Below are positions 386 to 13,761 of a DNA stretch of 16,853 nt, one piece after another. Numbering within the stretch: position 1 is the stretch's first letter; each line of letters opens with the position of its first letter. Made by a program: the position numbers and the translations under genes. Source of the stretch: Candidatus Abyssobacteria bacterium SURF_5 (lineage in GTDB: Bacteria > Abyssobacteria > SURF-5); contig QZKU01000029.1 in NCBI GenBank assembly GCA_003598085.1, positions 1 to 16,853 on the forward strand. Reading direction: 5' to 3'. The notes under the pieces were generated by a model. It saw only the letters and a program-made list of their open reading frames with translations, was not told the DNA's origin and did no database searches.

Positions 386-3091
386 TCATTCAGGCTTGCG
401 GATAGTTATATTGAGGATGGCGGGCAGGACGATCAGCGAGGCGATCAGGCAGGCGCTCATTCCGAGGACGAGCAGTTGCGCGAGGCTGATCAGGCCGCGA
501 TGGCTCGACAGGAGCAGGCACGCGAACCCGACGATGGTGGTGAGCGACGAGACGGTCACGGCGCGACCGGAGACGAGAAGAGCCGCCCGCACGTCCCGGC
601 CAAAATCATGAAACCCGTGAACAATGTGAACGCCGCTGTCGATGCCGATTCCGAGGATAATCGGGACGGCCATGATATTGATCGGGTTGTATTGCCAGCC
701 GAAAAGCTCCATGAGCGCGAGCATCCAGAGCAGTCCGAGCCCGACCGAAATGAGTGAGAGAGCCGCCGGAATCAGGCTTCGGAAATCGAGGATCACCAGC
801 ACGATGATGGCAAGCGCAACCAGCAGGGCGCTCTGCCGCAACGCTCTTCCGCTGATCTCGAGCAATGATTGCGCGAACAGTGTCGTGCCGGTCGCGTTCG
901 GGGCGACCTGCAGAAGGTCCTTATTGAATCTGTCGAGAAAATCCTTGTTCCAGATGCTTTGCGACGGAAAAACATAGGCGGCGTATTTGCAGGTTTTTCC
1001 GATGAATCGCGTCGCTATATTTTGCGGATAATCGCAAAACCGCACCGGTTCGAGCTGCCGCGCGTCGGTCAGGACGGCCATGCGGCCTTGCAGGTAAGCG
1101 AAAAGCTCGCGCGAGAAATCTTCCAGACTTGCGGAGACCGTCGCCTCATCCAGTCGCCTGCCGTGTTCGAGGAAGGTATTGGCGGCCGCATGCGCTCGTT
1201 CCAGTTGACGAATTATCTCCGCGTCCTTGATAATCGATTTGATTTTCAGAGCAGTCGAGAGGCCTTTCGTCATCTCTTCGAACTGTTTCATCAATCGTGC
1301 GGCGTCCACCGGCCCGTGGTTTTTGTTCATGCGCTGATCCATTTGCACGAGTCTGTCTCTGATGCGGGCAACGATTTCGACGGCATCCGCCTGATCGGGC
1401 GGAACCAGGTGGTTTGCGGCGTCCACCCGCGCAACCGAGGGCATGCGCGCCAGGCGCTCTGTCTTTTTCTTCAGCGACTCCAGATCATCTTCCACAATCG
1501 CGCCGAAGGACGGAGAAATTCCGGTGCGTTCCATGAGGACTTCCTCGTACTCGCCGGTCGTGGAATTTTTCGGCTGGATGTGCAGGAAATTGTAGTCGAA
1601 CGAAACCCGCGGCGCGAAATAGCAGGAAATGAGAGTCGCCACCGCAAAGAAAGCGATTATTGCCGGGGCGTTCGTCGTGGTGAACGAGCCGAAGGCATTC
1701 AGGAGCCGGCTCAGCAAGAATTCGGTCGGAGGTCGTTTTTCAAGAATGACCGGCCGCCATCTGGTGCGGAGCACGATCAGCGACGGGAGCACGGTCATCA
1801 TCGCCAGCAGGCACAGCAGGATGCCTGTTCCTGCGATGATGCCGAGTTCGGCCAGTCCCCTGAAGTCGGTTATCGAGAGCGTCAGAAATGCGACTGCCGT
1901 AGTAAGCGCGCCAGTTGTTATCGGCGGGCCTGCGCCCATGAACGCCGCTTTCATCGCTTTGGCTGCGTCGGCATTTCGTCCGAGCTCGTTGTTGAACCGC
2001 GCGATAAAGTGGATGCCGAAATCGATCCCGAGCGAGACCAGCGTGATCGCGAAGACGGAGGACATGATATTCAGATGGCCGATGAGGATTTCGGCGGCGC
2101 CGAGCGTGGTCGCGAGTGCCAGCAACAGCGAGACGCCGCAGAAAAATATCTCGAGCGGGTAGCGAAAAAAAAGAAAGAAGAGGATCACGGTCGCCACAAG
2201 CGCCAGAATAAAAAGCCAGGGCATTTCCTCTTCCATCACGCGCAGATCGCCGTATGCAAACGTGGGAAGGCCGGTCATTCCTATAACGGCATCGGGGAAC
2301 CGATTCATCGCGTTCTCGCGCGCCTGAACGAGCGCCGCCATCATCGGCTTAAGAAACTCCAGCGAATCTTCCTTCTCCGCATTCGGCCGCGCGGCTAGGA
2401 TCACGGTCTTGCGGTTCTTGCCGACCAGATAGCCGTCGGGATCGTTGGAGACGGCGAACGGCAGCGCTCGGGCCGCTACGTCGGAGAGGAAATCAAGGTC
2501 CGCACGCTCATGTTCCCAGAGATAAAAATTGAGCGTTTCGAGCAATCCGGCGAGCGCATCGAGTTCTTTCGCGGTGGCTGGATTCTGAAATTTTTCCTTC
2601 GCTCGCCTTTCGGCCAGTTCTCCAATTACCGGGAACACGTCGTTCAGGTTTTTCGCTGCGCCCATTTTTTCCAGCAGATCGGCGTTCTTGTCCAGGTATT
2701 CCTCGATCGCCCGCAGTTGCTCGACCGAAAAATAGAGGAACAATTTTTTTTCGGCAGCGGAGCGATCCAGCTTGTGCAGGACGTCGCGAATATACTGCGG
2801 GTGCTTTTCGATTTCGGCTGCGAGCGCATCGGCGCATTTCTTTGAATATTCGAGCGAGGGGCCTTCAATAATGAAGTAGATGTTGTTGGCGGTCCCGAAT
2901 TCCCGAGTGAAATCAGCATAGCTGCGCACATGCGGATTCTCGGGGGAAAGCAGGTCGGTGCGTCCGCTCATCACCTCAAGTCGCGAGGCTAGTATGAGGC
3001 CGGCGGCCGCGGCGGCTATCCAGACGAGGAGGATTAAGCCGGGGCGGCGAAGAACGAGGGATGCAAGTGAAAGAAAAAGTCTTTGCCGCAT
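386..3091 (-). CDS. MMPL/RND superfamily exporter
   Basis: This 901-residue inner-membrane protein has the classic two-fold RND layout. TM1 is at about residues 16-36, followed by a large periplasmic loop (37-288), a bundle of membrane segments (289-440), a second lone TM (470-490), a second loop (about 495-745) and a final bundle (750-895). The duplicated TM4 signature is visible twice, as GIDFGIHF (355-362) and GIGIDSGVHI (814-823); the aspartates are the expected proton-relay residues. The family exports lipids, hopanoids or other hydrophobic molecules using proton motive force, and the length fits it. The substrate cannot be read from the sequence: hopanoid transporters of the HpnN type are relatives, but no hopanoid gene is nearby. 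The second loop has a predicted helical stretch (about 560-680). The start is supported by a GGAG about 7 nt upstream. The gene stands alone between repeat regions. Confidence 0.88.
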   Translation of the reverse strand: MRQRLFLSLASLVLRRPGLILLVWIAAAAAGLILASRLEVMSGRTDLLSPENPHVRSYADFTREFGTANNIYFIIEGPSLEYSKKCADALAAEIEKHPQYIRDVLHKLDRSAAEKKLFLYFSVEQLRAIEEYLDKNADLLEKMGAAKNLNDVFPVIGELAERRAKEKFQNPATAKELDALAGLLETLNFYLWEHERADLDFLSDVAARALPFAVSNDPDGYLVGKNRKTVILAARPNAEKEDSLEFLKPMMAALVQARENAMNRFPDAVIGMTGLPTFAYGDLRVMEEEMPWLFILALVATVILFFLFFRYPLEIFFCGVSLLLALATTLGAAEILIGHLNIMSSVFAITLVSLGIDFGIHFIARFNNELGRNADAAKAMKAAFMGAGPPITTGALTTAVAFLTLSITDFRGLAELGIIAGTGILLCLLAMMTVLPSLIVLRTRWRPVILEKRPPTEFLLSRLLNAFGSFTTTNAPAIIAFFAVATLISCYFAPRVSFDYNFLHIQPKNSTTGEYEEVLMERTGISPSFGAIVEDDLESLKKKTERLARMPSVARVDAANHLVPPDQADAVEIVARIRDRLVQMDQRMNKNHGPVDAARLMKQFEEMTKGLSTALKIKSIIKDAEIIRQLERAHAAANTFLEHGRRLDEATVSASLEDFSRELFAYLQGRMAVLTDARQLEPVRFCDYPQNIATRFIGKTCKYAAYVFPSQSIWNKDFLDRFNKDLLQVAPNATGTTLFAQSLLEISGRALRQSALLVALAIIVLVILDFRSLIPAALSLISVGLGLLWMLALMELFGWQYNPINIMAVPIILGIGIDSGVHIVHGFHDFGRDVRAALLVSGRAVTVSSLTTIVGFACLLLSSHRGLISLAQLLVLGMSACLIASLIVLPAILNITIRKPE

Positions 3092-3158
3092 TTATGGCTC
3101 CATCGGATTGACGTAATGCTCTAGGTAGGTTAACAAAGGCGAATTGATGTGGCAAGAA

Positions 3159-3179
3159 GCACAGGCCTCTTGCCTGTGC
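3159..3179. repeat. GCACAGGC/GCCTGTGC hairpin
   Basis: GCACAGGC (3159-3166) and GCCTGTGC (3172-3179) form a perfect 8 bp stem with loop CTCTT. It lies about 70 bp upstream of the exporter start. A related CAGGC/GCCTG inverted pair recurs inside each of the two large direct repeats that follow, so it is most likely a dispersed palindrome rather than a gene-specific operator. Confidence 0.6.
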
Positions 3180-3206
3180 CACCGGAACATCTTACAAAAG
3201 AAAAAT

Positions 3207-3381
3207 CAACCACCAAGTCACGGAGACACCAAGGATTTTTAGGTTGTCATTCTGAGGAGCGGAGCGACGCGAGGCGCCGGACGAGAGACGGAAGAAAGGA
3301 ACACCACGCGAGCCGCGTGGCAGGCATGGCGGGACGCCTGTGCTACCGGAGCTTGGGGTTCGATTGTGATGCAGGAGAAGC
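3207..3381. repeat. Large direct repeat, copy 1
   Basis: This is the first of two related ~170 bp blocks. Positions 3292-3381 are identical, base for base, to 3560-3649. The 5' half is diverged and differs by an internal substitution or indel (3268-3291 versus 3545-3559). Inside the identical part is a perfect CCACGCG/CGCGTGG hairpin with a 3-nt loop, followed by CAGGC and GCCTG in inverted orientation. Confidence 0.8.
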
Positions 3382-3480
3382 AAGCATGAGGGCACGGAGG
3401 CACAAACAATTTTGGATTTTCGATTTTGGATTCTGGATTTTTCGTTCGAGGTCCGGGACAAGCTTTGCATTGAAGAAAAT

Positions 3481-3650
3481 CAAACCACCAAGGCACAAAG
3501 ACACCAAGGATTCTTTAAGGTTGTCATTCCGAGGAGCGGAGCGACGAAGAATCTGCCTTAAGAAAGGAACACCACGCGAGCCGCGTGGCAGGCATGGCGG
3601 GACGCCTGTGCTACCGGAGCTTGGGGTTCGATTGTGATGCAGGAGAAGCG
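3481..3650. repeat. Large direct repeat, copy 2
   Basis: This is the second copy of the ~170 bp block. It begins with a CACCAAG-type 25-nt repeat (3484-3508) and shares 90 identical bases (3560-3649) with copy 1. It is followed about 60 bp later by an inverted CTTGGTG-type copy (3711-3735), so 3484-3735 could be a 252 bp element with imperfect inverted ends. No transposase is encoded. Confidence 0.8.
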
Positions 3651-3710
3651 AGTGAAGTGCATGGAGGCCTCTCGGCAAACCGCGGGAATTGGAAGACTCG
3701 GCGAGTTCTT

Positions 3711-3787: not shown

Positions 3788-4411
3788 TTATGTCCTTGCT
3801 TTCTTTGCTGCGGCTTCGGCGCAGGGGATGCAGAGGCTGCGTCCTTTCAGGCGCCGGATGCGCGTGTCCATGACCTGTTCGCCGCAGTTTTCGCACACGA
3901 TGCTCTGGTGGATGCGTGCGGGCGCGGGCGGTTCCTCCGTCAGTTCCTGCCACTTGAGAAGCTCTTCGGGCGGCACAGTCAGAATATGCTTGATCAGCTT
4001 TTGGCGAAGGGTGCCGAACTCTTTTCGCTCGTTGTCGGTCGCCGAATTTTCGACGCGGATTCGTTTCTTCAGTTCCTCCATGCGCGCCCCGTCAGCACCG
4101 GGCAGAGTCGGAAATCCTCGATATGTAATGCGAAATGCCTTGTTTTTGTTTCTCGAAAAGAAGCTGAAACCGCCCTTGCCGTAGTCTTTGAAAACGAGGT
4201 TGCCCTTGCCGAAGGTGCAGCCGGTAACCACCTGCACGGCGTCGACGGCGCAGGTGTCGTTTTCAACGACCGCAACCAGTTCTTCATCTTGAGGGCGCTC
4301 GACCGCAAGAAGTTCAATGGCCGTCGCAGCTACCCTATATCCAATCGCCAGCCCGGGGCATTCGTGCCCATGGAACCGGACAGCTTCATCAAAGGTGTGC
4401 AATTTATTCAT
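3788..4411 (-). CDS. FmdE-family protein with C-terminal zinc finger
   Basis: This is a 207-residue soluble protein of the FmdE/FwdE family, named after a subunit-like protein encoded with formylmethanofuran dehydrogenase. In bacteria without that pathway its role is poorly defined, often in anaerobic or molybdenum/tungsten redox contexts. The family signature FHGHECPGL (residues 13-21) gives His14, His16 and Cys18 as likely metal ligands, with further conserved cysteines at 54 and 65. A C-terminal zinc ribbon has C173-x2-C176 and C194-x2-C197. The start is fixed by a strong AAAGGAGG about 9 nt upstream of the ATG at 4411; a longer reading from 4516 has no such site and an unrelated N-terminus. 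The gene is divergent from the acyl-CoA synthetase pair. No methanofuran or formate dehydrogenase gene is in the window, so its partner is unknown. Confidence 0.88.
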   Translation of the reverse strand: MNKLHTFDEAVRFHGHECPGLAIGYRVAATAIELLAVERPQDEELVAVVENDTCAVDAVQVVTGCTFGKGNLVFKDYGKGGFSFFSRNKNKAFRITYRGFPTLPGADGARMEELKKRIRVENSATDNERKEFGTLRQKLIKHILTVPPEELLKWQELTEEPPAPARIHQSIVCENCGEQVMDTRIRRLKGRSLCIPCAEAAAKKART

Positions 4412-4439
4412 CGCGGACCCGCCTCCTTTTCCGTTTATC

Positions 4440-4445
4440 ATTATA
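4440..4445 (-). promoter_or_regulatory. Possible -10 box of the FmdE-like gene
   Basis: Read on the minus strand this is TATAAT, about 28 bp before the ATG, which would give a short leader that includes the strong ribosome binding site. The hexamer 17 bp further upstream is a poor match to TTGACA. The assignment therefore rests on the -10 box alone. Confidence 0.35.
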
Positions 4446-4520
4446 TATTCTGCTGCAAAAGTCCGTTTTTGGATCGAATTCTGCCATGGTAAATGCGAAA
4501 TTACTCGCACATTCAAGACC

Positions 4521-4825: not shown

Positions 4826-5497
4826 ATGGAACTCATTACACAAGCCCTCAAGGCGGGACAACGGACGCTTTCCGAATACCAGTCCAAGCAGCTTCTGAGC
4901 GCCTACGGCATCCCCGTGACGCGCGAATTCCTCGCGAAGGACAAGAAAGAGGCGCTCGAATACGCGAAAAAGATCGGGTATCCGGTCGTCCTGAAAGGTT
5001 GCTCGCCCGCATTGACCCACAAGACGGAGCGCCAGTTGGTGGCCGTCAAACTGCGGGATGAAAAAGAAGTCGGCGAGGCGTTCGATGCGATCACCAAGCG
5101 GGCCGGTGAGCCAATGGACGGCATTCTCGTACAGGAGATGATATCGGGCAGCCGCGAGCTGGTCGTCGGGCTCACGCGCGACGAGCAGTTCGGCCCGTGC
5201 GCGATGCTCGGGCTCGGCGGCATTTTCGTTGAAGTGCTCAAGCAGGTGACTTTCCGGATCGCTCCGCTCGAGGAGCGAGACGCCCTCGAGATGATGGATG
5301 AGCTGCCGGGAAAGAAAATGCTCGAGGCGTTTCGCGGCGAGCCGCCGGTCGACCGCAAGACGCTGGCCAAGATTTTGATGACTATCGGCAATATCGGTCT
5401 CGAAAACGATGCCGTGAAAGAAATAGACGTCAATCCGCTCATTGTCTCGGGAGATAAGCCAGTCGCCGTTGACGCACTGGTGGTCCTGGGAGATTGA
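4826..5497 (+). CDS. ADP-forming acyl-CoA (acetyl-CoA) synthetase, ATP-grasp beta subunit
   Basis: This 223-residue subunit carries the ATP-grasp part of an ADP-forming acetate-CoA ligase, which makes acid, CoA and ATP from acyl-CoA, ADP and phosphate. The length equals that of split archaeal-type beta subunits. Visible features are a helical N-terminal region opening with LSEYQSKQLL (15-24), the catalytic-type histidine His65 in LTHKTE (63-68), a glycine-rich LGLGGIFVE (128-136) and the nucleotide/Mg motif EIDVNPL (199-205). AAGGAG 10 nt upstream supports the start. It is 121 bp upstream of the CoA-binding subunit, so the two are almost certainly co-transcribed. Oddly, the loop after the histidine reads ERQLVAVKL, whereas the family usually has an Asp and a Gly-Gly pair there. 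The acid substrate (acetate, propionate, branched or aryl) cannot be told from sequence alone. Confidence 0.9.
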   Translation: MELITQALKAGQRTLSEYQSKQLLSAYGIPVTREFLAKDKKEALEYAKKIGYPVVLKGCSPALTHKTERQLVAVKLRDEKEVGEAFDAITKRAGEPMDGILVQEMISGSRELVVGLTRDEQFGPCAMLGLGGIFVEVLKQVTFRIAPLEERDALEMMDELPGKKMLEAFRGEPPVDRKTLAKILMTIGNIGLENDAVKEIDVNPLIVSGDKPVAVDALVVLGD

Positions 5498-5542
5498 TAA
5501 GACGGATTCAGGCAGTCATTCTGCCTATTGATTCTCCAACCT

Positions 5543-5582
5543 GGCGGCGCCGACTCTTTCATGCCCCCTAGCCGGCGCCGTC
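5543..5582 (+). other. Intercistronic hairpin between the two synthetase genes
   Basis: Two copies of the self-complementary CGGCGCCG (5545-5552 and 5573-5580) can pair as a stem of about 10 bp, including one G-U, around a 20-nt loop. It sits in the 121 bp spacer between the subunit genes and has no T run, so an RNA-processing or stability element is more likely than a terminator. Confidence 0.4.
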
Positions 5583-5618
5583 TCTGCTCTTGATTATCTT
5601 CCACAGGAAATAGAGGAA

Positions 5619-7100
5619 ATGTCGAAAGTCTTGCAAAGATTATCACCGGTTTTCAACCCGCGCTCGATTGCCTTCGTCGGCGCCTCTAATAGCGTCACCA
5701 AATGGGGATTCCTTATCCTCTTCAATCTGCTTGACGGCGGCTACCAGGGACGGGTATATCCTGTCAATCCGCGCGAACGTGAAGTCATGGGAGTGACCGC
5801 ATATCCGAGCATTCTCGATGTGCCCGATGCCGTCGATCTGGCCATAATCGTCGTCCCGCCCCCGCAGGTTCTTCCGGTTATCCGGCAGTGCGTCGAAAAG
5901 AAAGTTCCGGCGGGAGTGGTGATCACGGCGGGTTTTGGCGAGCTTGGTGAAAAGGAGAAGGATCTCGAGCGGCAGATGGTGGAGTTGGCGCATGGTGGCG
6001 GTATGGTGCTTGCGGGCCCGAACTGCGCCGGCGTACTGAACGCCCATTTAAGCCTGTATTGTCTTATGCCGCCGTTCTTTCCGAAGCCAGGCGATATCTC
6101 GATGTGCTCGCAATCGGGGAATGTTGGCGCGTCGATGCTCCGGTTCAGCCTCCACCGCGAGATGGGATTCAGCAAGTTCATCAGCACCGGAAATGAGGCG
6201 GATCTGCACACCGAGGATTACCTGGAATATTTCGGTGAGGATCCGCAGACCAACGTGATACTTTCGTATTTGGAAGGGCCGCACGATGGGCGGCGGCTGT
6301 TCCAAACCGCTCGTTCAGTGGCAAAAAAGAAGCCGATTGTGCTGATCAAGTCGGGCCGAACGGCAGCCGGCGAAAAGGCGGCGCGTTCGCATACCGGTTC
6401 GCTGGCGGGCTCCGATGAGATATTCGACGTCATGTGCAGACAGGCGGGAATCATCCGGGTTGAAGACATCGAGCAGATGTTCGACACCGGCCGCGCATTC
6501 CAGCGCCAGCCGCTTCCGAAGGGAAAGCGCGTCGCGATTGTCGCGGCGGGCGGAGGCTGGGGCGTCCTGGCCGCGGATGCGTGTTCACGTGTCGGGCTGG
6601 ACGTCGTGAGACTGAGGCCCGAAACGCTTGAGGCGTTGGACGAAATTCTTCCTTCGTGGTGGAGCCGAAACAATCCGATTGATCTTGTGGCCGGGCTGAA
6701 GCCGGGGGATTTCATCAATTCGATAGAGGTCATGTTGCGGTGCGACTATGTGGATGCGGTGATGGCGCTCGGGGGGATCGGTTTTTCGACCGTTCGCGCG
6801 CAGGGTTTTCGGAAATCGTGCCACGCGGAGCGGTACAACCTGATCCACCTGTCAGAGCTTTTTGTCGGCGAGGACATGAGGACCGCGCGCGGGATCATCG
6901 AGCTTATCGACACGTATCAGAAACCGGTAATCGTTGCGTCTGAAACGTCGATCGGAGCGCGCCCGAATTTGAATCCTCCCGTTCTGGCCATAGAGGAAGC
7001 GGGAGTGATGGTGTATCCGACGCCGGATCGCGCCGCGAAGGTGCTTGCGCGAATGGTGGAACGCGCGCTGTACTTGCGGAACGGGGAAACGCAGGAATAG
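5619..7100 (+). CDS. ADP-forming acyl-CoA (acetyl-CoA) synthetase, CoA-binding/ligase alpha subunit
   Basis: This 493-residue partner of the preceding ATP-grasp protein has, in order, an N-terminal CoA-binding Rossmann domain with FVGASN (19-24), a succinyl-CoA-synthetase-like ligase domain with GPNCAGVLN (133-141) and SQSGNVGAS (164-172), and a C-terminal ligase-CoA domain. His258 in SHTGSLAG (257-264) matches the alpha-subunit histidine that is phosphorylated in characterised enzymes of this family. Known alpha subunits are about 460 residues, so this one is slightly long. The ATG follows GAGGAAA closely, with a second AGGAAA about 12 nt upstream, so the ribosome binding site is less ideal than that of the upstream gene. 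Split alpha and beta genes in the order beta-alpha suggest a heteromeric complex conserving energy by substrate-level phosphorylation. The gene ends 18 bp before a long inverted repeat. Confidence 0.9.
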   Translation: MSKVLQRLSPVFNPRSIAFVGASNSVTKWGFLILFNLLDGGYQGRVYPVNPREREVMGVTAYPSILDVPDAVDLAIIVVPPPQVLPVIRQCVEKKVPAGVVITAGFGELGEKEKDLERQMVELAHGGGMVLAGPNCAGVLNAHLSLYCLMPPFFPKPGDISMCSQSGNVGASMLRFSLHREMGFSKFISTGNEADLHTEDYLEYFGEDPQTNVILSYLEGPHDGRRLFQTARSVAKKKPIVLIKSGRTAAGEKAARSHTGSLAGSDEIFDVMCRQAGIIRVEDIEQMFDTGRAFQRQPLPKGKRVAIVAAGGGWGVLAADACSRVGLDVVRLRPETLEALDEILPSWWSRNNPIDLVAGLKPGDFINSIEVMLRCDYVDAVMALGGIGFSTVRAQGFRKSCHAERYNLIHLSELFVGEDMRTARGIIELIDTYQKPVIVASETSIGARPNLNPPVLAIEEAGVMVYPTPDRAAKVLARMVERALYLRNGETQE

Positions 7101-7245: not shown

Positions 7246-9432
7246 CTATTTGTTTTCGAGCTGCTGGAGGGCTTCGCGTGCGGCGATAAGGGAAGGGTCG
7301 GCCTTGAGTGCTCGCGTGAGATACTTGCGGGCGTTGTCGTAGCGCCCGTTTTCGAGATAGAGCGCCCCGAGGTTATATAAGGCGATCGCCTCATCTTCAT
7401 TCCATCGAAGCGCGAGCTTGTACTCTCTTTCTGCCTCGTCTTTCAGTCCCCGCTCATCATAGATCCGCCCAAGATTGGTATGCGCCAGCGCATGCCGCCA
7501 GTCGAGCGCGACGGCCTTCTTGTAGCAGTAGAGTGCGGTTTCCTGCCGGCCCATCCGGTCAAACGCCAGTCCCATATTGTAGTATGCCTCCGGCGAATCC
7601 GGTTGGAGCTCGAGGCCGGCCTTCAACTGCTCGGCCGCCTGCTCATTCTGCCCCATCACGAGGAAAACGAGGCCGAGATTGAATTTGATTTGCGCGTCTG
7701 CGTCCGACGGCGCAAGAACGTTGATCCAATCAGAAATCTTCCTCAACATGTCCGGGTTTTGTCCGTTGAGAGGGTCATCGGGCGCGACTGTTGGTGGTTT
7801 CCAGCGAGTGATATCGATCCGATTCCTCGCGATCACGTCTACATTTTTGGAAGTTGCCCTGGCGAAAACGGCGGCAACGGGATCGAGGTGTACGAGGAAC
7901 CAGCCGGGGGTGCTGTAAATGATTGGCGCCATGAAGAGCCCATCTTGTGATGTGTGCGATATGAGGGCGGCGTTAAATCCATATTGATCGGCAAGTTCGG
8001 AGAACTGTTTCGGGTTCGACAGGACACTGCAATACTCGGCCAGAACGGTTTCTGTGTTTACTTCCAGGCGCGGATCAATGAACACTTTTTCCGATGGGAA
8101 CATCTGCCAGATAAACATGCCGCCGGCATCGAGGCTGTTGAAGAACGGACCAGACAACTTCTTCTCCTTGATGAACGACAACGACTCCTGCGGAAATGAA
8201 TGTTCTTTGAAGCCGATGCCGAATCTTTCCGCGCGCTTGTCTGAGATATAGTACCGATTGTTCCATATTCGCACGGTCTGTACGGCCATGATCGCCATGA
8301 GCATCAGATACGCGGCCATGGCGAGGCCGCGGGAATGCCGGCGTTCCAGGTTGAAGAGCATGCGCCACCTATCAACAACATTTCGAGCATGCACAACCAC
8401 AAACGGGAGAACGGCGAGCATGAAAACCGGCACGTTTCTGCGGGCGTTGAGGGCGAGATAGCCCATTCCGAGAAAGATAAAGATGTGGCTGAGTCTCGCG
8501 TTTCGCCAGTCGAGCGCGAGCGCAAGGGCGCTCAATGCGAGGAACCCGGCGAAATACATCGTGGCGCTTGTGACGTTGTATCCGGAGAACGGCGGCTGAA
8601 ATTCGGCGACCGAATTCGCAAAGACGTTTTCCATTCCGCCGACTCTCGTAAAGAGCGTGGCCGGAAACAGGAGCCCCTTCAATCCGTAGGGATTTATGAG
8701 GGAAGCGGCAACGGTCAAGGCGAAAAGTGCTCCGAGCCGGAGTGTCTTCCTGTCAGAAAATACTGACAGATCCCATCTTCTTCGGATTGAAAAATATGGT
8801 TTTTCCCTATCTATTAAAATAGAATCGAGGAAGTACGCAATAATCAGGCAAGGGCCGAGAATGAAGAGCGCCTGCAGGTTGGTCCAGATAATTTGCAGCG
8901 GAACGAGCAGAAAAATTCGCGCGCCGATTCGGCCGCGATCGTGTTTGATGAGGAGGAGTGTGTACAGCGCTATCATAAGGTAGGTGAATGCTTCCGGACG
9001 CGCAAGGAATCGGAAGCTGCCGGCAAGAAGCGCGAGCCAGATGAACAGCAGTGCTAACAGGCGACTCCTGGGGCGCCGGCACGAGAGCCAGGTAACGTAG
9101 AACGTTGCGGAATAGACGGCGACGAAAAGCAGGGACAGCGCATAGGATCCGAACGTGTGATAGGCGGTGTAAACGATCAATTGGAACAGCCAGTGAAGGT
9201 CGATCCATTGATTGCCGCCGGCGGTAAAGGAATATGGATCTGTCGCCGGAATGCGGCCGGATTCCAGGATGAGTTTGCCTGTCCTCAGATGCCACCAGAT
9301 GTCGGTGTCGATGATCTTGTGCGCGAACAGGGAGAGAGCGAGGATGGCGAGCCCAAGGAACGCAAGCCGTTTCAATATGGCTTCGGCTCTTTCAAGTATG
9401 GTCGGCGAAGTATTTTCCAGAGTTATGATCAT
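7246..9432 (-). CDS. GT-C-like membrane protein with C-terminal TPR repeats
   Basis: This 728-residue protein has an N-terminal membrane part of roughly 10 segments (residues 22-390). A first periplasmic loop carries DTDIWWHLRTGKL (42-54), the kind of acidic loop motif seen in GT-C glycosyltransferases that use polyprenyl-phosphate sugars. A soluble region of about 150 residues (400-550) follows, then four TPR units (about 580-725) with typical YYNMGLAFDRMGRQETAL and ALYNLGALYLENGRYDNA patterns. The substrate is not recognisable and the catalytic assignment is by architecture only. It is the last gene of the probable three-gene operon, 70 bp after its upstream neighbour. No clear ribosome binding site precedes the ATG at 9432. 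The interval upstream includes a GCCGCC/GGCGGC stem (9494-9513) overlapping the end of the previous gene. Confidence 0.75.
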   Translation of the reverse strand: MIITLENTSPTILERAEAILKRLAFLGLAILALSLFAHKIIDTDIWWHLRTGKLILESGRIPATDPYSFTAGGNQWIDLHWLFQLIVYTAYHTFGSYALSLLFVAVYSATFYVTWLSCRRPRSRLLALLFIWLALLAGSFRFLARPEAFTYLMIALYTLLLIKHDRGRIGARIFLLVPLQIIWTNLQALFILGPCLIIAYFLDSILIDREKPYFSIRRRWDLSVFSDRKTLRLGALFALTVAASLINPYGLKGLLFPATLFTRVGGMENVFANSVAEFQPPFSGYNVTSATMYFAGFLALSALALALDWRNARLSHIFIFLGMGYLALNARRNVPVFMLAVLPFVVVHARNVVDRWRMLFNLERRHSRGLAMAAYLMLMAIMAVQTVRIWNNRYYISDKRAERFGIGFKEHSFPQESLSFIKEKKLSGPFFNSLDAGGMFIWQMFPSEKVFIDPRLEVNTETVLAEYCSVLSNPKQFSELADQYGFNAALISHTSQDGLFMAPIIYSTPGWFLVHLDPVAAVFARATSKNVDVIARNRIDITRWKPPTVAPDDPLNGQNPDMLRKISDWINVLAPSDADAQIKFNLGLVFLVMGQNEQAAEQLKAGLELQPDSPEAYYNMGLAFDRMGRQETALYCYKKAVALDWRHALAHTNLGRIYDERGLKDEAEREYKLALRWNEDEAIALYNLGALYLENGRYDNARKYLTRALKADPSLIAAREALQQLENK

Positions 9433-9502
9433 GAAAAGATAGTCAGTTGTCCGAGGGCTTCAATGTCCCGATCATGAGAATAATGCTCAATCGGCCGCCG
9501 AT

Positions 9503-11206
9503 TCAGAGGCGGCTGCCTTGAACAGGTTTTTCCTTTGCTGCGCTCTCAGATTTCACCGCCCCCCTTAGCTGTTGAAGCTTTTCTTTTGCGGGTGTGAATT
9601 CCGGTTGATATCCGAGCGCCGTCAGGAAGCATTGGACCGCCTGGGCGTTCTCATGGTTTTCGGCGTGGGCCGAACCTTTCTCGAACCATGCGAGCGCGAG
9701 ATTATGGAGCATTCGCTCATCCTGCGGCGCCTGGCGCAGGCCGATGTCGTATTCGCGGATCGCGGCGTCCCACTTCCCTTTCGCAAGATACACATTGCCG
9801 AGCACTCCGTGAGCCGAGGGAAAATGTTCTTGAAACCTGCAGGCGATCTGCAAATGCTCGATAGCTTCATCATACTGCCCGCGTTTATAAAGCTCAAGGC
9901 CCAGATTGTAACGGGAGGTGGTTCCGAGGGGCGACGCTTTGACCGATGCCGTCCACAAAGAGAGCGAGTCGCGCCAGTCGCTGTTCCGGTCGAAAGTGAG
10001 AAGGCCGTACCCGAAAGCGATCAACCCCAAGGCGAGCGCCATTCCTTTGTACGCGAGCGGCCTTGCCACCTTCGAGACGATCAGGAGGGGCGCTGCCAGA
10101 GCGGCGCAGAAGCCGATCGACGGCAGGTAAAGGAACCGTTCATTCAGTATCGCTTGTAAAGGAATGATATTGGAGACCGGCAGAAGCGATCCGAAGAACC
10201 ATGCGATGCCGAATCCGACTGCCGGAATTCGCCGGTATGAGATCAACCAGACAAGGGCGCTCGTCAAAAGAACAAGAAGAGAGAGCATCACCGTCGGCTG
10301 AAGTAGTGACTGGGGAATCGGAACGATATATTCGACCATGAGGGGACGCGGCATGAACATGAGCCGCACATAGTACGCGAATGCTTTGATCATCGTCAGG
10401 GAAGACGCCCAAAACGAGCCGCCCCAGTAATCCATCTGCTTCGTTTCCCCGAGCACCAGGTGCCTCGCCAGGATGTATAGAACGGAAAGCGCCGCGAATG
10501 GAAGGAGCGCCGAAATACGCTTCCTCCATTCGCCCGCCTTTTCCGGCCGGTTCACGGAAAAGTCATGGACCAAGATCAGCACCGGCAGAACGACTGCCAT
10601 TTCCTTTGCAAGCAAGGAGAAAGCGGCGAACATGAGTGCGAGCGCGTAGAAGACGCGTTTTTTTTCTGAATCGGCGGTCCATTGCCTGTAGCACATGAGA
10701 GAGAGCAGCAGGAATGCGAGAAACATCGAGTTTCCACGGGCTGAAATCCAGGAGACCGCCTCGGTCTGTACGGGATGCAGGAGAAACAGCAGCGAGACGA
10801 AAAACGCGTACACACTGTGGCCGAACAACTGGCGGAAGAAGAGATACACCAGTAATCCGCAGACGGCGTGCAACAGTATGTTCACGGCGTGATATGAAGC
10901 GGGGCTGTAGCCGTTCAGCGCGTAATTCAATGCGAAGCTGATGGCGGCGAACGGTCGATAGATGACGTATTCGCCTTTATTGGAGAACGACTCCCGGTCG
11001 AGGAAGAATCTCAGCGGGTGCGATAACGTGCGAATCGAGGGATTTTCCACGATGAAAGGGTAATCGTCGTAAACAAATTCGGCGGAAAAATTATGGGAGT
11101 AGGCCAGAAGCGCCGTAACGAGGAGCAACACCAGCGGGAGGACCTGCCGCAGTCTCAGATTTCTGCTTTCCGGCGTTCGGGCCAAATTTTTCCAGTTGTT
11201 GTTCAT
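9503..11206 (-). CDS. TMTC-like GT-C membrane glycosyltransferase with TPR repeats
   Basis: This 567-residue protein resembles bacterial homologues of the TMTC/PMT group, which in eukaryotes transfer mannose to proteins. Visible marks are the first-loop acidic motif VYDDYPF (45-51) after TM1 (22-38), the conserved HPVQTEAVSWISARGN (144-159), and NERFLYLPSIGF (355-366). About 11 membrane segments are followed from residue 430 by three TPR units (YNLGLELYKRGQYDEAI, HGVLGNVYLAKGKWDAAI and a third near 500-540). The ATG overlaps the stop codon of the upstream 852-residue gene in the arrangement ATGA (11203-11206), which suggests translational coupling. The likely function is transfer of a sugar from a lipid carrier on the outer face of the membrane. 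Donor and acceptor are unknown. Confidence 0.8.
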   Translation of the reverse strand: MNNNWKNLARTPESRNLRLRQVLPLVLLLVTALLAYSHNFSAEFVYDDYPFIVENPSIRTLSHPLRFFLDRESFSNKGEYVIYRPFAAISFALNYALNGYSPASYHAVNILLHAVCGLLVYLFFRQLFGHSVYAFFVSLLFLLHPVQTEAVSWISARGNSMFLAFLLLSLMCYRQWTADSEKKRVFYALALMFAAFSLLAKEMAVVLPVLILVHDFSVNRPEKAGEWRKRISALLPFAALSVLYILARHLVLGETKQMDYWGGSFWASSLTMIKAFAYYVRLMFMPRPLMVEYIVPIPQSLLQPTVMLSLLVLLTSALVWLISYRRIPAVGFGIAWFFGSLLPVSNIIPLQAILNERFLYLPSIGFCAALAAPLLIVSKVARPLAYKGMALALGLIAFGYGLLTFDRNSDWRDSLSLWTASVKASPLGTTSRYNLGLELYKRGQYDEAIEHLQIACRFQEHFPSAHGVLGNVYLAKGKWDAAIREYDIGLRQAPQDERMLHNLALAWFEKGSAHAENHENAQAVQCFLTALGYQPEFTPAKEKLQQLRGAVKSESAAKEKPVQGSRL

Positions 11207-13761
11207 TGAAGTGCTTTTTCTGCCGATTCGGAAATGGCCAATTTTTCTTCCAGAACGGCAAGCAACTCCGCCACCGTGGACTGACCGGGACTCTTTTCCA
11301 ATGCTTGCCGGCAGGCAAGCGCCGCGTGTGAATACATTTTTTTCTGCATATAAAGCACCGCAAGCTTATTGTAGCATGCGCCGGCGTCTTTGATCCCGGC
11401 GGCCAATCCTCGCTGCAAAGTTTCGTACGCTTCGGCGAAGCGCCCGCTCCTCATCAGGAGAATCGCCAGCCGGTTGATAGCCGATGGATCATTCGGATGA
11501 ATTAAGAGAGAAGCCTTCAGGCTGAGGATTTCCGAATTCGGCCTCGGATAGATCTCGAGCGTGTCGCCGAGCATGATCCTGTTCCCTTCATAGTAAATGC
11601 GATAATCGCGAAAGGGCGAATGCTCGATCAAGAGGAAATCGCGCTCGTATCGCTGAATGATGTCCAGCGCTTCAGCGAGAGCGCCGCGCTCCTCGAGGAT
11701 GGCGGCGAGGTTTGCCCATCCTTCGCAGAAATCAGGCTCGAGTTCCAGCGCCGCGCGCACTTCGCGCTCGGCTTCTGAGAGGTTGCCTTCGGCCCAGAGG
11801 AAAACTCCGCGGTTGTTGTGGACCTTGTACTCATCTTCGAGGTCGGCGGGCGGGCGCGGCGTTCGCGCATACGAGTGGAACGTGTCCTGAACCATCGCCT
11901 GCTTCTGAAATGTTTTGCTTGCCGCGGTGTCGCCTTTAAGGGCGGCGAGAAACGAGAGGTTGCCTAAAGCATCCAGCCTGAGCGGATGCGATTCCGGCAC
12001 TAATGCGAAGGCATTGAACGCTTCGTCCAGATGCCCGAGTCCCATGTTCGCCAAGCCTAGGGTGTACAGCGCCTCCGAAAGCTGCGGCTGTTTTTCAAGC
12101 GCCGCCTCCGCCAGCCGCCGGGCTCTATGGAGGCGATCATCGGCATAAGCGAAAGCAGCGAGATAATATTCGTCCGGCAGGCGGCGCTTATCGGGCGCGC
12201 GCGCGGCAACGTGTTTTTCATCGAGATCATAAACCAGCCAAGAGTACCCGATATGGGCGACAGGCTCGAACTCTCGCAGCCATGCATGGATATCGTCTCT
12301 ACTGAAGCAATCCTGCAGCGTGGTCGCATTAACAAGGATTCGTCCGGGCACCGGCAGAATACCGGGATTCACGGCGACCGGAACGGTCGACTTGCGGGCA
12401 AATGCCACGGCCTGCTCGTAATCCTGTCCCCAGTCCAGGTTCGAATCGGAGAGCCATTTGTATCCCCTTTTCGGCCCGCCGATCAGCATGCTGAAATACG
12501 AGAGATGATGCGGGTGAAACCATATTGCCGGCGCAATGTAGAGAGCGATGAGAGTGCCGACTGCAATCCGCTTTCCGCCGCTCGAAAAGAGAGCGGGGAC
12601 CGCGCCCGCCAGAATAAAAAGAGGCGGCAAAGCGACGATAATATATCTGAAACCGGCCTGGCTGCGGCTGAGGAGGCTGTGGCTCGCTATTATCGCTATC
12701 GACGATGACGCCAACAGAAGCTGAGCCGTTTTTCGCCGCCTGTCGCCATTGCGCAAAGACGCGAAGACAGTCAATCCCATCATCGGCCAGAATGCAAGCG
12801 GTATCTTCAAGAGGAGCGCGAGCGGGAAGTAGTACCACCAGCCGTTTGTGGATCTCATTCCCGCCAGAAACGAAGAATGCCCCACCTCTGCGATGTGTTT
12901 CTGGGCGTCAAATCCGCGCACAAACGGATAGGGCGCCGGCACCGGAATCCAGTCTGTCAGCGGGTTGTGCGACAGTCTTGCCAGCAAGCGGCTCTGGTAA
13001 TGATATTCGCCAAGCTGGAAGAAAGAGCCGGAGAACCCATAGCCTGCATTCAGAACGACAATTGCGACTGCAAAAATCATGGCGATCGCCGCAACAAGTT
13101 TCAGAGGTCTGACAGCGGCGGGTTCGACTTCATCCGGACGCCGCCGCCAAAACAGTGCGATTGCGAGAGCAAGCGCCGGCAGCAGCGCGAACCAGATGAC
13201 CGCGGAGTACTTGGCCAAAAGAGAAAGACCCATGCTGAGGCCGCAGGCCAAAATCCAGCGACTCCCGCCGTCGCACAGGAACTTCCAGAAGAAGTAGAGC
13301 GTAAGAAGGCTGAAACAGGCATAGATGATATCGGTCGTGATAAGGGAAGAGTGCGCGAGAATATTTGAATTGAACACATACAGCGCGAGGGCGGCCAGCC
13401 CGCCTTCCGCGCCGAAGAGGTCTCGCGCCCAAACGAAAATCAACAGCCCCAGGATTAGTGAGTACGGAAGCATGGTTACGCGCGCCCAGCGCAGCCGCTG
13501 CAGTTCCCCCGAAAACTGGAACGGCTTCAGAAGGAAGCCATGTGTATAGAAAGAAAGAGGAGCATGCACGACGCTCATCTCGGTCCGCCATCCCTCCCCC
13601 GACGCGAGCTGTTGTCCGATCTGAAGGAATTTTGGTTCGTCGTATGTCGGGGAATATCGGTAGATGTTTTGCAGGCAGAGGCCGGCAAAAACGGCGAGAA
13701 GCGCTGCGGCAAGGGTAAGAGGAATTCGCTGATTCAAATTGTGGATGTGCGAAGGCTTCAT
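11203..13761 (-). CDS. Glycosyltransferase family 39-like membrane protein with long TPR region
   Basis: This 852-residue protein opens with TM1 (15-32) and the acidic loop motif PTYDEPKF (38-45), typical of family 39 and ArnT-like GT-C enzymes. About 10 further membrane segments follow (to residue 415). The stretch GGPKRGYKWLSDSNLDWGQDY (428-448) is a recognisable motif found after the membrane part of many such bacterial proteins. The region from 540 to 835 has several TPR units, including EALYTLGLANMGLGHLDEAF and VHNNRGVFLWAEGNLSEA. No close ribosome binding site is visible before the ATG at 13761; a GGGAAG lies about 18 bp away. It is the first gene of the probable operon and overlaps the next by 4 bp. 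A role in surface glycan or glycoprotein assembly is inferred. Confidence 0.8.
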   Translation of the reverse strand: MKPSHIHNLNQRIPLTLAAALLAVFAGLCLQNIYRYSPTYDEPKFLQIGQQLASGEGWRTEMSVVHAPLSFYTHGFLLKPFQFSGELQRLRWARVTMLPYSLILGLLIFVWARDLFGAEGGLAALALYVFNSNILAHSSLITTDIIYACFSLLTLYFFWKFLCDGGSRWILACGLSMGLSLLAKYSAVIWFALLPALALAIALFWRRRPDEVEPAAVRPLKLVAAIAMIFAVAIVVLNAGYGFSGSFFQLGEYHYQSRLLARLSHNPLTDWIPVPAPYPFVRGFDAQKHIAEVGHSSFLAGMRSTNGWWYYFPLALLLKIPLAFWPMMGLTVFASLRNGDRRRKTAQLLLASSSIAIIASHSLLSRSQAGFRYIIVALPPLFILAGAVPALFSSGGKRIAVGTLIALYIAPAIWFHPHHLSYFSMLIGGPKRGYKWLSDSNLDWGQDYEQAVAFARKSTVPVAVNPGILPVPGRILVNATTLQDCFSRDDIHAWLREFEPVAHIGYSWLVYDLDEKHVAARAPDKRRLPDEYYLAAFAYADDRLHRARRLAEAALEKQPQLSEALYTLGLANMGLGHLDEAFNAFALVPESHPLRLDALGNLSFLAALKGDTAASKTFQKQAMVQDTFHSYARTPRPPADLEDEYKVHNNRGVFLWAEGNLSEAEREVRAALELEPDFCEGWANLAAILEERGALAEALDIIQRYERDFLLIEHSPFRDYRIYYEGNRIMLGDTLEIYPRPNSEILSLKASLLIHPNDPSAINRLAILLMRSGRFAEAYETLQRGLAAGIKDAGACYNKLAVLYMQKKMYSHAALACRQALEKSPGQSTVAELLAVLEEKLAISESAEKALQ

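Follow-up and report, generated by a model that had tools for sequence, protein, structure and literature searches.

A conserved operon of three dissimilar GT-C/TPR membrane proteins in Candidatus Abyssobacteria: a candidate outward-facing glycosylation system

Both the GT-C superfamily of membrane glycosyltransferases and the TPR-fused architecture are already known. The animal TMTC1–4 proteins (CAZy GT105) are O-mannosyltransferases of cadherins, and the TMEM260-like proteins (PF11028, GT117) are likewise a GT-C O-mannosyltransferase family. Human TMTCs have 11 membrane segments and carry their TPRs in the ER lumen, and full-length prokaryotic TMTC homologues have been reported earlier (PMC7801869). 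A search of open papers, which is weak evidence on this point, found no description of bacterial operons of GT-C/TPR proteins.

Here we describe three such genes from Candidatus Abyssobacteria bacterium SURF_5, a genome of 5.1 Mb on 145 scaffolds with 4482 genes that was recovered from mine fluid at 1.5 km depth (PMC6121073). The assembly analysed here comprises 5,103,455 bp in 145 contigs. The window, that is, the whole stretch of DNA that was analysed, is an entire contig of 16,853 bp. On it, genes A, B and C follow one another in the same orientation on the minus strand; the overlap of A with B is 4 bp (11203–11206), and 70 bp separate B from C. The features are as follows.

11203–13761, minus strand: gene A, 852 aa; predicted PMT_2/GT39-like GT-C core, then TPRs; D41-E42 in the first outer loop
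11227–12144, minus strand: TPR region of A (Pfam), residues about 540–845
9503–11206, minus strand: gene B, 567 aa; predicted TMTC-like GT-C core, then TPRs; residues D47-D48, YRP 83–85, K201-E202 and ER 356–357
9572–9934, minus strand: TPR region of B (Pfam), residues about 425–545
9433–9502, no strand: gap of 70 bp between B and C, the place of a DPMS-like GT2 gene in SURF_17
7246–9432, minus strand: gene C, 728 aa; predicted core of a GT-C family that Pfam does not model, then TPRs; motif IDTDIWWHL (D44)
7753–8247, minus strand: soluble domain of C, from the last membrane segment to the TPRs, with the conserved VFIDPRLE (D453, R455)
7258–7710, minus strand: TPR region of C (Pfam), residues 575–725

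All three proteins join a multi-pass membrane core to TPRs, as an earlier note made from the sequence had described: Pfam places the TPRs at the C-terminal end, and family-averaged hydropathy gives, as rough counts, nine membrane segments ahead of them in A, 11 in B and nine in C. Because each of these numbers is odd, the TPRs would lie on the opposite side of the membrane from the N-terminus. BLASTP comparisons among A, B and C gave meaningful E-values for the TPRs only, which indicates that the cores are not recent duplicates and agrees with the note's statement that the three proteins are distinct in sequence. A promoter scan showed no excess over shuffled sequences.

The three cores differ in how readily they can be assigned. 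The core of A matches PMT_2 (PF13231) at 42.4 bits (cut-off 26.1) and PMT (PF02366) at 30.9 bits (cut-off 22.7) in Pfam, which bears out its description as family 39-like. The core of B matches PMT_2 at 28.1 bits in a six-frame search and has no match in a plain hmmscan. B keeps D47-D48, YRP, K201-E202 and ER..Y, corresponding to TMTC motifs M1, M2, M4 and M7, and with its approximately 11 membrane segments and C-terminal TPRs it fits the TMTC-like label proposed before. At the cut-off of 27 for PF08409 (TMTC_DUF1736), however, the B orthologue of SURF_17 reaches 15.9 bits, at the expected place, and B of the window is not listed; we therefore call B TMTC-like rather than a TMTC. The core of C has no Pfam matches, even at an E-value of 10.

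AlphaFold2 models of C and B, built from alignments of three and two sequences, respectively, had poor membrane cores (mean pLDDT 52 for C and 45 for B), so homology was tested by profile–profile comparison instead. Foldseek and VIA-align searches with the C model (mean pLDDT 52) gave TPR proteins only among the matches listed; being limited to the TPR part, these have no bearing on the core. A PDB sequence search with the C and B profiles likewise gave TPR matches only among those listed. The comparison used profiles of C (32 homologues), B (14), A (3), the PMT_2 proteins of the genome (7), TMEM260-like proteins (4), STT3 (4) and ArnT. Single membrane controls were NuoL, M, N and H, WzxE, WzyE, WecA, WaaL, CyoB, CyoE, AmpG, AmtB, MscK, AcrB, MdlA, the MMPL protein of the window and, from these genomes, a Wzx, an antiporter and an MFS protein; multi-sequence control profiles, one of them of nine MFS proteins, were also included.

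Known GT-C pairs (PMT_2 against TMEM260, STT3 and ArnT) scored 65–139, and all membrane controls scored 24.4 or less. Against the PMT_2 profile, A scored 268, B 72.4 and C 59.7 (E 1.8e-6, 490 columns); A against B scored 60.5, and C against STT3 38.9. Scores of C against single GT-C sequences were near background, so the assignment of C rests on family profiles. The profile alignments set D44 of C against the DE of the PMT_2 proteins and its late arginine region against theirs, and the VFIDPRLE stretch against both the SNLDWGQD region of the PMT_2 proteins and the WWD region of STT3. A conserved acid, a candidate for a catalytic role, is present in the first outer loop of all three proteins: D41-E42 in A, D47-D48 in B (14 of 14 sequences) and D44 in C (32 of 32). 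Judged in this way against membrane controls, profile–profile comparison places the cores of A, B and C in the GT-C superfamily. The GT-C cores proposed in the earlier note are thus supported through profiles and not through structure, and C, there called an unassigned GT-C type, appears as a GT-C relative with its own family and no Pfam model.

The closest named public relative that we found is SURF_17. All three genomes of the family, each from a different genus, preserve the order A-B-C: the window genome, G001 and SURF_17 (G002). In G001 (contig 149) the genes run A-B-C, with B and C overlapping; in SURF_17 (contig 123) A is truncated at the contig end and is followed by B, a GT2 gene of 229 aa, and C. 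Identity to the window proteins is 52% for A, 56 and 59% for B, and 52 and 53% for C. The earlier note had read the short overlap and spacing as an operon and held that a scattering of the genes in relatives would speak against the trio. The genes are not scattered: with the same order in three genera at 52–59% identity, both the operon layout and the reading of the genes as a trio stand. If 15 GT-C/TPR genes were placed at random among 4482 genes, about 0.05 adjacent pairs would be expected; together with the order in three genera, this puts the trio beyond chance.

The best solved relative of the GT2 protein encoded in the SURF_17 operon is dolichol-phosphate-mannose synthase (5mlz), followed by ArnC and sll0501; the NCBIfam models for AglJ, PgfS, PpgS and ArnC match it below their own cut-offs. 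The SURF_5 gene nearest to it lies on contig C64 (50% identity), and the other two genomes have counterparts at 48–49%. The trio operon itself contains no GT2 gene in SURF_5 or G001. The view that no sugar-donor gene accompanies the trio therefore holds for SURF_5 but not for SURF_17, where the DPMS-like GT2 gene sits between B and C, which suggests that the system of at least one relative includes a donor-making gene. GtrA-type flippases were not found in the three family genomes, nor were sugar-nucleotide, Wzx or Wzz genes found beside the trio in the window or at the SURF_17 locus.

The remainder of the window holds genes of other kinds. Upstream of the trio, and directly upstream in G001 too, is a glycyl-radical-enzyme activase (TIGR02494; 14245–15216, minus strand); the window has no glycyl radical enzyme adjacent to it. 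On the other side, at 4826–7100 (plus strand) and 3788–4516 (minus strand), an acetate-CoA-ligase-like protein, split into ATP-grasp and CoA-binding genes, neighbours an FmdE protein that carries a DksA-type zinc finger; ATP-grasp and FmdE genes flank the trio in SURF_17 too. An RND transporter (386–3091, minus strand) resembles the hopanoid transporter HpnN and the sterol transporter BstA, at scores below the curated cut-offs. The intergenic stretch at about 3150–3700 gives spurious, self-repeating translations (…VAGMAGRLCYRSLGFDCDAGEAS…), suggesting a short repeated element. An exosortase/PEP-CTERM link, prompted by matches of the TPRs to PrsT, was rejected, as the genome has no exosortase.

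Relatives of C and B are found well beyond this family. Among 386 sampled species, 93 contain the C core (E 1e-10 or better) and 156 the B core (E 1e-25 or better); viral and phage collections contained no relatives of either. Some C homologues have recognisable TPRs and others do not. In 20 loci picked by C match alone, a GT2 gene lies immediately downstream of C in two (after 18 bp in G266, overlapping in G088), a TMTC-like gene lies at or near C in two (on the same strand in G266, converging in G170), and C–C tandems occur in three. Two large membrane proteins adjoin C in G301 and likewise in G014, where they are of YfhO type; C overlaps a TMEM260-like/TPR gene in G218, an ordinary C locus. 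With some 30 GT2 matches in a genome of roughly 4400 genes, chance would give about 0.3 adjacent cases in 20 loci; the two observed are by themselves only suggestive.

Three further genomes (G068, G121 and G258) form a selected set, obtained from contigs common to the C and B match lists. In G068, B is followed by C. The G121 locus reads TMTC-like/TPR, another TPR membrane protein, TMTC-like/TPR, C, GT2, a Wzy_C/TPR protein and a 14-segment protein. The G258 locus reads TPR membrane protein, TMTC-like/TPR, TPR membrane protein, C, GT2 and TMTC-like. A GT2 gene of the kind seen in SURF_17 is thus directly beside C in four distant genomes (G121, G258, G266 and G088), and the overlapping ORFs and repeated composition in unrelated genomes make the C–GT2 linkage stronger. 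Most C homologues have no TMTC-like or GT2 neighbours.

Several of these loci have features of their own. The G121 operon (contig C41; L166 1391–13747) runs on one strand with mostly overlapping ORFs, and its GT2 is DPMS-like. The G258 operon (contig C102; L167 1–9494) is also on one strand and mostly overlapping, and both of its TPR membrane proteins carry an RLDLAxSxxLSGxLNIDExH motif; this RLDL-type protein may be one more unassigned GT-C kind. In G001 (contig C269; L033 4512–8656), a C-family/TPR paralogue directly precedes genes that resemble, by eye, those for undecaprenyl-diphosphate synthase and phosphatidate cytidylyltransferase; its neighbour would thus be a lipid carrier maker.

We infer the following topology, donor use, acceptor class and cooperation for A, B and C. 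The three would be different inner-membrane GT-C glycosyltransferases. A cytoplasmic GT2, encoded within the operon in SURF_17 and perhaps by the nearest relative on C64 in SURF_5, would make a polyprenyl-phosphate-linked sugar. This lipid-linked sugar would reach the outer face, where each GT-C core would transfer it by means of the first-outer-loop acid (D41-E42 in A, D47-D48 in B, D44 in C). The TPR arm of each protein, on the outer side, would bind and select the acceptor; the TPRs of TMTCs have been proposed to recruit cadherin domains (PMC11292533). If the acceptors are, as seems most probable, envelope proteins, A, B and C would together form a small set for O-glycosylation whose members either add successive sugars or serve different acceptors. 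Outward GT-C activity with a lipid-linked sugar is the part of this scheme that we consider quite probable. Towards the full statement, that these are outward transferases of polyprenyl-phosphate sugars acting on protein acceptors selected by the TPRs, we lean slightly, protein acceptors being favoured by analogy with the TMTCs. We give less than an even chance to A, B and C forming one physical complex. Tentatively, and with some doubt, we suggest that C founds a widespread new GT-C family and that the trio with its GT2 partner exemplifies a bacterial multi-enzyme system whose several dissimilar GT-C enzymes glycosylate specific envelope proteins by means of outward TPR arms, a prokaryotic counterpart of the TMTC and TMEM260 O-mannosylation pathways.

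The same enzymes might instead decorate or build a surface polysaccharide, an LPS-like lipid or a secreted glycan, with the TPRs assembling enzymes or binding partners. Of the bacterial relatives ArnT is the best known, and its target is lipid A; GT2–GT-C pairs like ArnC–ArnT act on lipids. The Wzy_C/TPR protein of the G121 operon, a member of the O-antigen-ligase family, and the 14-segment membrane protein beside it point the same way, although the Wzy_C/TPR neighbour is compatible with protein and with glycan or lipid acceptors alike. A polysaccharide gene set, however, is absent beside the trio both in the window and in SURF_17, and long TPR arms, which ArnT does not have, are typical of the protein-modifying TMTCs. 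We regard such acceptors as rather unlikely.

A different objection comes from the abundance of these genes in SURF_5. The genome has 38 PMT_2 matches, five confident TMEM260-like genes together with many relatives of B, and at least 15 GT-C genes with TPRs, a census that is a minimum. A second triple, of three overlapping TMEM260-like (PF11028)/TPR genes, is found on contig C68 (G000:C68, about 23180–30287; L075 4180–11287). Two neighbours within it are 32% identical over their full length and are probably tandem duplicates, unlike the trio of the window. On contig C42 (G000:C42, about 23026–26759; L071 3027–6760), two TMTC-like/TPR genes form a tandem pair whose ends overlap, and the opposite strand carries a TMEM260-like gene nearby. 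The architecture is thus common in SURF_5 and is not unique to the trio site. With such a stock, and with C standing alone in the majority of distant genomes, A, B and C could be independent enzymes, co-transcribed and together by descent but functionally separate, and no joint machine would exist. We consider this improbable: with cores as dissimilar as these, tandem duplication fails to account for the trio, and unrelated genomes again have C next to TMTC-like/TPR and GT2 genes.

The alignment of C homologues bears on whether C is an enzyme at all. All 32 homologues share D44, W81, R145, W183, N185, E277, R332 and D453 without exception. The family has no characterised members and no Pfam model, and its profile signal to known GT-Cs is moderate, so that C might be a membrane receptor or scaffold whose activity was lost or never present; the invariance of D44, E277, R332 and D453 across distant species and the donor-making GT2 genes that adjoin C make this very improbable.

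The reading that we favour, of TPR-armed transferases acting on proteins at the outer face, would, if true, give many little-known bacterial lineages a glycosylation system dedicated to the outer face, whose enzymes are relatives of the TMTC O-mannosyltransferases of animals. The C family, present in about a quarter of the sampled species, would then be annotated as a family of enzymes. Because a donor synthase is linked to these genes, the donor hypothesis lends itself to a direct test in a relative that can be cultivated. As far as our analysis shows, three things are new: a family, that of C, for which Pfam has no model; a conserved operon that joins three dissimilar GT-C/TPR proteins; and the repeated association of C, in distant lineages, with TMTC-like proteins and a DPMS-like GT2.

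These proteins can be set against five known systems. With STT3 (PF02516), the C profile is collinear over 431 columns, the WWD region standing opposite the GG-VFIDPRLE region of C; but the score of 38.9 corresponds to a probability of 22%, PF02516 does not match C at an E-value of 10 and the WWDxG motif is missing, and C was rejected as an STT3 oligosaccharyltransferase. TMEM260-like proteins share the GT-C O-mannosyltransferase theme, and three of the five confident SURF_5 members stand in a row with TPRs, but PF11028 matches none of A, B and C; with a profile score at background, C was rejected as a member of GT117. DPMS/ArnC/GtrB-type GT2 proteins are the best solved relatives of both the SURF_17 operon GT2 and the GT2 adjoining C in G088, although the GT2s found here are shorter (229–249 aa), have no membrane tail and are missing from the SURF_5 operon. 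A resembles the protein O-mannosyltransferase/ArnT-type GT-Cs (PMT_2, PMT), scoring above both cut-offs and matching the PMT_2 proteins of the genome over its whole core, but has in addition a soluble domain containing SDSNLDWGQD and some 300 residues of TPRs. B shares with animal TMTC1–4 approximately 11 membrane segments, the DD of the first outer loop, YRP, KE, ERxxY and C-terminal TPRs; it differs from them in that RxD is replaced by RxN in the trio's B and its orthologues, and in that the two other genes of its operon encode GT-C/TPR proteins unlike it.
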